Assembly (NCBI RefSeq): GCF_014696615.1
Contig: NZ_JACJQJ010000031.1
Location: forward strand, 1 to 64,000
DNA: 64,000 nucleotides
Direction of reading: 5' to 3'
From: Nostoc linckia FACHB-104
GTDB taxonomy: Bacteria > Cyanobacteriota > Cyanobacteriia > Cyanobacteriales > Nostocaceae
Part shown: positions 53,981-56,359 of the stretch, piece by piece
Layout of the letters: each line of letters starts with the position of its first letter
Position numbering within the stretch: position 1 is the stretch's first letter
Program-made: the position numbers and the translations under genes
The notes under the pieces: model-generated
The model's input: the letters and a program-made list of their open reading frames with translations, nothing else
Told to the model about the DNA's origin: nothing
Database searches by the model: none

Positions 53981-54142
53981 ATGGGAAATTTAACCTAGGT
54001 CAGTTGTCAATTATCATTGAAGAGTTAAGGCGATCGCACTACACGCTTGTACGAATTATTGCCAAACGCTGCTCATACCCTCTGATATCGCCAGTGTTTG
54101 CCAGTTGCTTTACAAAATGTGATAACAAGAGATCATAAAGAT

Positions 54143-54230
54143 GGGTTATACCCCTCACTACCAAAATGTTATACTCTGTTAAAAATATACGCTGGTAATC
54201 TCAAAAGCTATCTAAGTAGCGCTTCTTGTG
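54143..54230 (+). ncRNA. Decayed copy A of the small RNA repeat
   Basis: This aligns with the intact copy 150 bp downstream through the upstream element (GGGTTATACCCCTCACTAC), a -10-like TATACT (54170-54175) and the body (aagctatctaagtagcgctt). The terminator stem is degraded and the T run is missing, so it is probably not functional. Confidence 0.5.
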
Positions 54231-54295
54231 ATTGAGCAAACCCAGCCTAGAAAAATTTGCTAAAAATTTATACAAAAAACTTTGATTGGGGGGTC

Positions 54296-54384
54296 TTGCC
54301 CATCACTACAAAGATGCTATAATCATGATATATAGATGCACCCTGATGACCTGGAGAGCTGCCCAAGTAGCTCTCTTTTTTTTG
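54296..54384 (+). ncRNA. Putative small RNA, copy B (intact), with promoter and terminator
   Basis: A complete transcription unit is visible. The -35-like TTGCCC (54296-54301) is followed after 16 bp by the -10 TATAAT (54318-54323). The expected start is near 54330. The RNA body (tatagatgcaccctgatgac) ends in a 7-bp stem GAGAGCT/AGCTCTC (54354-54375) and eight T. The transcript would be about 50-55 nt. An ATG at 54336 could open MHPDDLESC, but there is no ribosome-binding site and the stem lies within it, so a non-coding RNA is more likely. The second intact copy, 498 bp downstream, differs at only three positions in the transcribed part. Confidence 0.75.
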
Positions 54385-54644
54385 TGACTCAGTTTTTACA
54401 TAACAGTTGCACAGGCAAATCATTGTCAGAATGCTTGCCATTATTGAATTTAAAGATTTGGAATTTAGCTTTACTTAGTAGGATTTTAGCTCTCAAGGAG
54501 GTTGAAACCACTCAAGCTTCATCTTTGATGAAATTCTTTCCAGACAACCTATCGTAGATTGAACTGAGAGTTTTTGATGTTGGGCTGTGCCTAGTTATAG
54601 AAGAGTCTTCATCAGAATTTTGAATCAAGCTATTAAATAATAAG

Positions 54645-54745
54645 TGGTATCACTCATGTTAAAAACCTACTTATCTGCTAAGTAAATGCACGGTGATAAT
54701 TTGAAAATTTGCCAAAGTAGTTGCCTTTTGTATTTTTTGTGTTAA
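54645..54745 (+). ncRNA. Decayed copy C of the small RNA repeat
   Basis: The body atgcacggtgataatttg (from 54686) followed by gccaaagtagttgcctttt aligns with copies B and D. The -10 has decayed to TACTTA (54668-54673) and the terminator stem is mostly lost. Its spacing to copy D (148 bp) equals that of copies A and B. Confidence 0.5.
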
Positions 54746-54794
54746 CCTGAAAGCCAACTTCACCATATTTTCATAAAAACCTGATTAAGGGGTA

Positions 54795-54880
54795 TTGCCC
54801 CTCAGCGAAAATATGCTATGATGTGGTATATAGATGCACCCTGATGATCTGGAGAGCTGCCCAAGTGGCTCTCCTTTTTC
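54795..54880 (+). ncRNA. Putative small RNA, copy D (intact), with promoter and terminator
   Basis: The -35-like TTGCCC (54795-54800), a 16-bp spacer and -10 TATGAT (54817-54822) are followed by the same body as copy B. It ends in the stem GGAGAGC/GCTCTCC (54851-54874) and five T. Changes relative to copy B in the stem (A to G, T to C in the right arm) retain pairing, and one adds a G-C closing pair. This supports selection on the RNA fold rather than on a peptide. Confidence 0.75.
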
Positions 54881-54950
54881 AATTTTTAATGTTGTCAAGA
54901 GTCAAGGGTCAAAAGTTATTTGGTATTTGGTAATTGGTGTTTGTTATTTC

Positions 54951-55030
54951 CCCTCATCTCCCAATCCCCAATCCCCAATCCCCAGTCCCCAATCCCCAGT
55001 CCCTAGTCCCCAATCCCCAACCCCCAATCC
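54951..55030. repeat. CCCCAAT/CCCCAGT heptamer array
   Basis: About ten imperfect 7-bp units (CCCCAAT, CCCCAGT, CCCTAGT) lie just before argJ. Similar arrays occur at 8160-8210, 12917-12960 and 49120-49160. Confidence 0.8.
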
Positions 55031-55117: not shown

Positions 55118-56359
55118 ATGGCAGACTGGCAAGAGATTACAGGTGGTATCACAGCACCAAGGGGATATCAAGCAGCAGGAATTACCGCAGGTTTAAAGCC
55201 TTCGGGATTACCTGATTTAGCTTTGATATTGTCAGATGTGGAAGCGATCGCAGCAGGTGTGTTCACCACTAGTCAAGTTAAAGCCGCTTGCGTAGATTAT
55301 TGTCGCCAACGCTTACAAGCCAAACATAATGCACGGGCAATTCTTTGTAATGCGGGACAAGCAAATGCGGCTACAGGTACTCAAGGCTGGTTTGATGCTT
55401 TAGAATCAGCGATGACGGTAGCCCAAGTTTTGAATATCCCTAGCGAATCTGTATTATTGGCTTCCACTGGGGTGATTGGACAGCGCATCAAAATGGATAA
55501 ACTCAAAGCAGGGATTCCGCAACTAGTAGCTGCACTTTCAGAAACAGGCTCAGATGCGGCGGCTGGAGCAATTATTACTACAGATTTAGTGCCTAAATCC
55601 ATTGCCTTAGAAACAACTATAGGCGATCGCCCCGTGCGAATTGGAGGAATTGCCAAAGGTTCGGGGATGATTCACCCCAACATGGCAACTATGCTGGCAT
55701 TTGTTACCTGTGATGCGGTTGTATCGCCAGCGCTTTGGCAACAAATGTTAAGTCGCGCCGCCGACAGAAGCTTTAATTCCATTACCGTTGATGGTGATAC
55801 CAGCACCAATGACAGCTTAATCGCCTTAGCTAATGGACAATCTCGCACCCCAGCCATTATCGAAATTGGGCCAGAGGCGGAAAAACTAGAAGCAATGTTA
55901 ACAGCAGTTTGTCAGCATTTAGCAAAAGCGATCGCCCGTGATGGTGAAGGTGCAACTTGTCTCATGGAAGTGCAAGTTACAGGGGCCCATGATGAAACTT
56001 CAGCGCGTCAAATAGCTAAAACCATTGCAGGTTCATCCTTAGTGAAATCTGCAATTTTTGGCCGCGATCCCAACTGGGGACGTATCGCCGCCGCTGCTGG
56101 ACGTGCAGGTGTACCCTTTGAGCAAGAAAATTTGCAAATCAAACTAGGGGATTTCTTACTCTTAGAAAATGGTCAACCGCTATCATTTGATCGTGCAGCA
56201 GCGAGTGCTTATTTGAAACAAGCAGCAGCAGGTGCTTATCTCAAAGAAGATACAGTATTAATCTCTGTGAGTGTTGGTAATGGTCATGGTACTGGTAAAG
56301 CTTGGGGTTGTGACTTGAGTTACGACTATGTGAAAATCAACGCCGAATACACCACATAA
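55118..56359 (+). CDS. argJ: Bifunctional ornithine acetyltransferase / N-acetylglutamate synthase ArgJ
   Basis: ArgJ makes ornithine from N-acetylornithine and returns the acetyl group to glutamate, closing the cyclic arginine pathway. The 413-residue precursor carries the autoprocessing site KGSGMIHPNMATMLAFVTCD (about residues 180-199), where cleavage before the Thr of MATML gives alpha and beta chains. Other typical blocks are GVFTTSQVKAACVDYCR, LCNAGQANAATG, ASTGVIGQ, DGDTSTNDSL and GRDPNWGRIAAAAGRAG. GGAG lies about 10 bases before ATG 55118. The C-terminal YDYVKINAEYTT is the usual end. Confidence 0.96.
   Translation: MADWQEITGGITAPRGYQAAGITAGLKPSGLPDLALILSDVEAIAAGVFTTSQVKAACVDYCRQRLQAKHNARAILCNAGQANAATGTQGWFDALESAMTVAQVLNIPSESVLLASTGVIGQRIKMDKLKAGIPQLVAALSETGSDAAAGAIITTDLVPKSIALETTIGDRPVRIGGIAKGSGMIHPNMATMLAFVTCDAVVSPALWQQMLSRAADRSFNSITVDGDTSTNDSLIALANGQSRTPAIIEIGPEAEKLEAMLTAVCQHLAKAIARDGEGATCLMEVQVTGAHDETSARQIAKTIAGSSLVKSAIFGRDPNWGRIAAAAGRAGVPFEQENLQIKLGDFLLLENGQPLSFDRAAASAYLKQAAAGAYLKEDTVLISVSVGNGHGTGKAWGCDLSYDYVKINAEYTT

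Follow-up and report, generated by a model that had tools for sequence, protein, structure and literature searches.

The 64,000-nucleotide stretch of Nostoc linckia FACHB-104 analysed here, which we call the window, carries ahead of argJ a tandem array of short units that look like small RNA genes, each with a promoter and a terminator of its own. What these units encode, and what controls them, are the questions that the locus raises. We propose that the two intact units, B and D, probably specify a trans-acting sRNA of about 50 nt, a sibling of NsiR1 (nitrogen stress-induced RNA 1), that is controlled by the cell-fate regulator HetR, with HetR most likely acting as an activator. Transcription of this RNA, binding by HetR, the direction of control, and the targets are features that we infer; the proposal draws on the near-identity of the seed with that of NsiR1, the match to a HetR operator, the spacing of that operator, co-occurrence with hetR, the gatB-argJ locus, and covariation in the terminator stem.

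The array contains two intact units (B and D) and two decayed units (A and C), all on the forward strand. In unit B, a putative HetR operator at 54288-54304, containing the palindrome core GGGTCTTGCCC (54291-54301), is followed by the -10 hexamer TATAAT (54318-54323) and a predicted sRNA at 54330-54383, whose start we place 7 nt past the -10; the RNA includes the seed GATGCACCCTGATGA (54335-54349), a terminator stem-loop (54353-54376), and a T run ending at 54383. Unit D repeats this layout, with a putative operator at 54787-54803 around the core GGGTATTGCCC (54790-54800), the -10 TATGAT (54817-54822), and a predicted sRNA at 54829-54879, again with a putative start, that comprises the seed (54833-54847), a stem-loop (54851-54874), and a T run ending at 54879. 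The two units are 93% identical across 56 nt and lie 498 bp apart, measured seed to seed. These results bear out the preliminary description, which had given this spacing, had described the two promoters as TTGCCC-16-TATAAT and TTGCCC-16-TATGAT, which lie at 54296-54323 and 54795-54822, and had noted that substitutions in the stem preserve pairing; indeed, the same hairpin is predicted for both units, with fold z-scores of -3.3 for B and -2.7 for D, as compared to -0.7 and -0.4 for the decayed units C and A. The TTGCCC box is present as described, but it belongs to a palindrome, GGGN5CCC, of which it makes up the right half. A consensus scan of 1.3 kb found six promoter-like sites where 3.3 are expected and three terminators where 1.2 are expected; because such scans are insufficient by themselves, our case for sRNA genes is built on conservation. 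Downstream of the RNA genes and outside them lies argJ (55118-56359, forward strand), encoding a bifunctional ornithine acetyltransferase/N-acetylglutamate synthase. Between unit D and argJ there is also a short CCCCAATC-like minisatellite with a 14-bp double period (54959-55030).

Units A and C are truly related to the intact pair, although they have decayed. The GGGN5CCC core is present in A, B, and D, and none is intact in C. Unit A has kept its palindrome (GGGTTATACCC, 54143-54153) and a -10 reading TATACT (54170-54175), although its body, which extends to about 54240, has decayed; unit C (54644-54744) retains a degraded palindrome (54644-54655) and a remnant of the body (54682-54744). None of 500 two-base-block shuffles gave alignments as good as those observed for A-B and C-D, and the same is true of A-C, A-D, and C-B. 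Model R1 detects unit C (E 0.0017, or 0.03 against the whole genome) and gives no match to unit A in either search. Unit C lies 148 bp from D, as reported earlier, and A lies 148 bp from B when measured by operator and -10, one less than the earlier estimate of about 149. The further idea that a block of roughly 500 bp, with one decayed and one intact unit, had been duplicated did not survive: the likeness of the spacers and flanks was matched by 161, 384, and 247 of 500 shuffles, and we rejected block duplication on these grounds.

The layout had been likened to that of NsiR1, which in Nostoc sp. PCC 7120 is encoded by a 12-copy array before hetF (PMC9045159). The genome that contains the window has such an array as well. 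On contig C138, GTAGATGCACCCTGATAAC-type units with TCCGGA lie upstream of a gene identified as hetF (HetF by NCBIfam NF045509, 1505.5 bits), and Rfam model RF02399 finds 13 NsiR1 units in this hetF-linked stretch, which fits the published PCC 7120 array. The likeness proved to be close: the 5' end of B and D (TAGATGCACCCTGATGA) hardly differs from that of this NsiR1 array, 11 units of which have TAGATGCACCCTGAT exactly as B and D have it; the base right after it is G in one RNA and A in the other. Besides this near-identical 5' segment, the two RNAs have in common a length of about 50-60 nt, a single terminator hairpin, a promoter for each copy, tandem arrays, and a HetR-tied element at the -35 position. 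That element is DIF1 (TCCGGA) in NsiR1, whereas the window RNA has GGGN5CCC together with a TATAAT-like -10. The terminator stems also differ in sequence. NsiR1 is found at hetF, with one copy antisense to the hetF 5' UTR; in contrast, the window RNA belongs to a gatB-argJ locus and is antisense to no leader. Two observations of the preliminary description stand, namely that TCCGGA is absent from the window units and that the array precedes argJ and not hetF; the palindrome that occupies the place of DIF1 had escaped it.

The suggestion that the units form a separate family is right in one respect and not in another. RF02399 gives 21.2 bits for B and 19.4 bits for D, below its gathering cut-off of 39, and in a permissive scan unrelated Rfam families score on B and D as NsiR1 does; the 5' end, however, is nearly that of NsiR1. 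Among 20 loci tested with RF02399, the cut-off was reached by all 14 of the DIF1 type and by none of the five of the palindrome type (L013, L016, L049, L106, L258), with L312, which has no palindrome, also falling below it; the best sub-threshold score seen was 35.9 bits (L258). Judged by its sequence, the window RNA is a sister family of NsiR1, and we rejected the view that it is wholly unrelated. A match to another Rfam family was likewise rejected: none reached its gathering cut-off anywhere in the window, nor in 54100-54900 with E values up to 5. Seed-sharing multicopy sibling sRNAs are a class discussed in the NsiR1 paper (PMC9045159), and they too have several copies and a common seed; here it is the control element that differs, and not copy number only.

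In the genome of the window, tandem TCCGGA elements at 70-100 bp occur in two unrelated places. The third seed-bearing locus of this genome is a solitary NsiR1-type unit on contig C149 (L305, 1499-1568), which has TCCGGA, GTAGATGCACCCTGGTTAAG, and a hairpin, scores 51.9 bits with RF02399, and is flanked by candidate lgt and precorrin methyltransferase genes, named by eye. Long DIF1-type NsiR1 arrays also occur away from hetF, in Okeania (L083, 2089-3175) and in a member of the Oscillatoriaceae (L064, 3472-4593), two genomes that we take to be non-heterocystous.

What, then, is the palindrome at the -35 position? The sequence GGGN5CCC is reported to be indispensable for HetR on the hetP operator, from a structure and gel shifts (PMC4649674), and the same requirement is quoted in the HetR ChIP-seq paper (PMC4192349). 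The genome of the window encodes HetR and also contains hetP (NF037966), with the operator GAGGGGTCTTGCCCCTC about 1 kb upstream of it. The putative operators of B and D share the GGGN5CCC core with this site and are identical to it at 15 of 17 bases each; they differ in that the hetP operator stands about 1 kb before a protein gene and those of B and D at the -35 position of an sRNA. When the 9.39-Mb genome was searched with the 17-mer hetP operator, allowing up to two mismatches, four sites were found: hetP itself, B, D, and one on contig C35. At up to three mismatches there are nine sites, as compared to 19 for the reversed pattern; since the reversed control is the commoner of the two, the three-mismatch pattern carries no signal alone. 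The hetP-like sites on C35 and C57 have no recognised HetR target adjacent to them. The palindrome of B and D looks like a putative direct landing site for HetR. The available text of the PCC 7120 HetR ChIP-seq paper names no arg, gat, or alr207 gene.

In the mechanism that we propose, HetR would bind GGGN5CCC, centred about 33 bp before the putative start of the RNA, where it would replace the -35 element, and binding would most likely switch the RNA on. HetR might instead act as a repressor, covering the -35 region and keeping the RNA off where HetR is active, in which case the RNA would mark the cell types opposite to those of NsiR1. The palindrome does overlap the TTGCCC hexamer in B and D, and HetR repression at some promoters has been reported (PMC4192349, PMC7761841). 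Yet in the sibling NsiR1 the DIF1 element at the same position is linked to HetR-dependent induction (PMC6133370, PMC7761841), which is why we favour activation, and many units have no -35-like hexamer outside the palindrome. We consider repression possible but unlikely.

The position of the palindrome is conserved in other cyanobacteria. We collected 97 units with a seed and a T tail from 61 sources, comprising hand-chosen cyanobacterial loci and the window. A GGGN5CCC lies within 60 nt upstream in 54 of the 97 units; among 7737 60-mers taken from these loci as background, 104 contain it (binomial P 3e-74, a statistic that ignores kinship). Of the 54 units with the palindrome, 52 have its centre 36-39 nt ahead of the seed. 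In DIF1-type units, the centre of TCCGGA lies 36.5-37.5 nt before the seed in all 24 cases found within a search range of 28-46 nt. The equal distance of the two elements from the seed suggests one RNA start with two exchangeable control elements; two HetR promoter routes would lead to nearly one seed, DIF1 for NsiR1 and an operator of its own for the RNA described here. Of the 43 units without the palindrome, a TCCNGA-like element precedes 15 and neither motif precedes the other 28, although a loose, degenerate version of the palindrome fits 20 of the latter. Degenerate palindromes are frequent at loci of the Nostoc/Anabaena branch, where control by HetR may accordingly be weaker or have been lost.

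Several units depart from these forms. The seed has changed to GACGCAACTTGAT, with the terminator stem kept, in Anabaena UHCC 0204 (L028, 5308-5374, reverse strand), Dolichospermum (L026, 559-618, reverse strand), and Anabaena FACHB-1237 (L051, 5045-5110, forward strand); in L028 and L051 a palindrome-like operator precedes the changed seed. These units are perhaps seed-diverged paralogues. The unchanged seed also occurs with neither palindrome nor DIF1 and with no gatB or argJ nearby (L020, L040, L066 from Microcystis, L313, and L314). In Chamaesiphon, a unicellular genus, seed units have TCCCGA or TCCTGA at the DIF1 position (L010, L086).

If HetR acts through the palindrome, the two would be expected to occur together, and a survey of 386 genomes drawn evenly across the phylum points in this direction. 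HetR (PF03574) is encoded by 80 of these genomes, the palindrome with the seed is present in 57, DIF1 with the seed in 68, and the bare 17-nt seed in 78; reversed control patterns gave no match among the matches listed in the three pattern searches. HetR is encoded by 56 of the 57 palindrome genomes and by all 68 DIF1 genomes. Conversely, the palindrome and seed are found in 56 of 80 genomes with HetR and in one of 306 without it, counts that are less independent, owing to kinship, than their Fisher values suggest. Outside the family to which the window belongs, 36 of 37 HetR genomes have palindrome and seed, and the one exception (G286) has the DIF1 form; inside the family, the exact palindrome precedes the seed in 20 of 43. 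Of the genomes that lack HetR, eight retain the seed; one is G005, and the other seven belong to family f5. The HetR-less loci L312-L314 (from G005, G095, and G312) have no palindrome before the seed, and G005, at one locus in one lineage, keeps the gatB-RNA-argJ order, the -10, the seed, and the stem with the palindrome missing. The lone exception to the co-occurrence is G229, which has five palindrome-and-seed units (L310 is one of the places); no HetR was found in this genome by the family search, nor by a protein search that lacked a positive control.

These data bear on a further alternative, in which some other regulator binds the palindrome, or the palindrome is a structural feature of the promoter, and it resembles the HetR core by coincidence. 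The core is short, G229 combines palindrome and seed with no detectable HetR, the palindrome is often degenerate in HetR genomes of the Nostoc branch, and shared ancestry inflates the co-occurrence. Against this, the putative operators of B and D agree with the one before hetP in their own genome, the co-occurrence holds in nearly every HetR genome outside the family and fails in a single HetR-less genome, and the palindrome is missing from the syntenic locus of the HetR-less G005. We judge coincidence to be improbable. The best reading of the survey is that the RNA follows HetR and not heterocysts, and that among filamentous cyanobacteria it extends beyond heterocyst formers: Symploca, Moorena, Spirulina, and Limnothrix, in which we find it, are non-heterocystous genera.

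The RNA also has a usual home, between gatB and argJ. We examined 52 hand-chosen loci of palindrome-type, degenerate, or syntenic character, some of which end at contig borders. On the strand of the RNA, 21 have both gatB and argJ, ten argJ alone, nine gatB alone, and 12 neither. Downstream argJ is found in 31 of the 52 loci, and in most of these no more than about 460 bp separate it from the last unit; a few neighbours lie farther off, with argJ at 1837 bp in L012 and gatB at 1302 bp in L028 and at 989 bp in L105. As to the flanking genes named in the preliminary description, argJ is conserved but the site-2 protease is not: the M50 peptidase with CBS domains that lies on the other side of the array in the window was found at none of the 52 related loci. 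In cyanobacterium ESFC-1, a CRISPR array with Rfam CRISPR-DR5 repeats follows soon after argJ (L049, 6977-7741).

The constancy of argJ, on the same strand and close downstream, could mean that the promoter, short leader, and terminator form an attenuator that governs read-through into argJ. Complete units stand in tandem, however, in two to six copies; no argJ is found in 21 of the 52 loci, some of them cut by contig ends; argJ is 1837 bp away in L012; and NsiR1, which lies at hetF, has almost the same 5' end. We rejected a plain argJ attenuator, given that the unit is not always single and not always directly before argJ, and regard this explanation as very unlikely.

Conservation of the unit itself supports an RNA gene. 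The exact 15-mer of the body occurs at no fewer than 118 loci; among the matches listed, many are cyanobacterial with the same layout, often in tandem, and many others are chance matches in unrelated bacteria. Tandem copies number six in Moorena, four each in Symploca, Symplocastrum, Spirirestis, and Calothrix, and three in Fischerella and Rivularia. The -10, the body, and the stem are kept in relatives, a check that had been set in advance and could have gone the other way. In the terminator stem of 46 aligned units, 94.9% of cells are paired and six of nine pairs have changed on both sides; none of 500 shuffles reached the observed values in any of five measures. Because the seed was the search key, its invariance among the fetched loci proves nothing; when units were selected by operator, -10, and stem alone, 51 of 54 had the exact 13-nt seed, although the loci themselves had been fetched by seed.

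A leaderless micropeptide (ATG CAC CCT GAT, MHPD...) might be encoded in place of a regulatory RNA, given that an ATG lies just past the putative start and that NsiR1 units have the same first four codons; by inspection we rejected it, since indels of one, two, and three bases occur past the seed, in and around the terminator loop, diverged copies alter the ATG or read GATGCACCGTAATGA, GATGTATCCTGACGA, or GACGCAACTTGAT with no silent-site bias apparent by eye, and no ribosome site is visible upstream, all of which makes this reading scarcely credible. A functionless dispersed repeat or mobile hairpin is equally far-fetched: it could explain the tandem copies, decayed ones included, and the 12 loci where neither argJ nor gatB was found, but the only convincing matches genome-wide in the same genome are B, D, C, and the NsiR1-type loci, and the locus, the promoter spacing, and the covarying stem are conserved.

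If B and D encode a HetR-activated sRNA, what would it do? About 20 nt at the 5' end of the RNA, including the seed UAGAUGCACCCUGAUGA, would be largely free of pairing, and a Rho-independent terminator would make up the rest; the predicted fold shows no pairing of the 5' end in B and weak pairing in D, ahead of a strong terminator, and the NsiR1 copies are alike in this. In Nostoc PCC 7120, NsiR1 represses hetF and alr3234 via their translation-start regions (PMC9045159), and the seed of the window RNA may similarly pair with translation start regions of mRNAs and block translation. Because the seed is common to both, we predict that the targets probably overlap with those of NsiR1. Predicted binding to the hetF leader of the same genome is -22.4 kcal/mol for B and -23.0 kcal/mol for D, ranking third in each case among 228 background stretches, the top one of which (about -43 kcal/mol) is probably the antisense of the RNA itself; this pairing is due in part to the fact that one NsiR1 copy is antisense to that leader. 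No convincing target besides the hetF leader was found in this genome. A search for complements of the seed, with up to two mismatches allowed, gave 20 places, of which 13 are the RNA genes themselves and seven are others; setting aside the site on C79, none of the other six coincides with the beginning of an ORF of at least 60 aa.

We recognised nothing in the literature as the gatB-argJ RNA, although a mention is possible in Ionescu 2010, Mitschke 2011, or Table S3 of PMC4734099. In the literature text, the seed 13-mer is absent, an 11-mer appears in unrelated papers only, and NsiR2 is absent together with HetR. An sRNA survey of PCC 7120 considered a start only if it preceded the next gene by 200 nt or more (PMC4734099); the seed lies 156 nt (L071) and 192 nt (L070) upstream of argJ in two Anabaena loci, so copies close to argJ may have escaped detection. 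The same source describes sRNA 4547237r of Nostoc sp. PCC 7120, which is similar in size (51 nt without the U run), was verified by Northern blot, and has homologues reported in heterocystous strains only (PMC4734099); compared by description and not by sequence, the window RNA differs in that its range includes Symploca, Moorena, Spirulina, and Limnothrix. An NsiR1-like RNA of 57 nt, RNA162, is reported from Limnospira, a non-heterocystous genus (PMC8400943).

The array offers what may be a natural promoter-exchange experiment, in which nearly one RNA 5' end is found behind two control elements and the one HetR-less relative that retains the locus has no palindrome. We know of no established answer to the question of what HetR does in filamentous cyanobacteria that form no heterocysts. 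An sRNA with a probable HetR operator and the seed of a cell-fate RNA is a concrete and easily probed candidate for a HetR output. More tentatively, and with somewhat less than even confidence, we suggest that the gatB-argJ RNA may have been a core output of HetR in ancestral filamentous cyanobacteria, before heterocysts arose, with operator and DIF1 interchangeable at one position and sibling RNAs carrying the role of HetR. If this is true, seed-sharing RNAs, and not proteins alone, would execute that role where there are no heterocysts.
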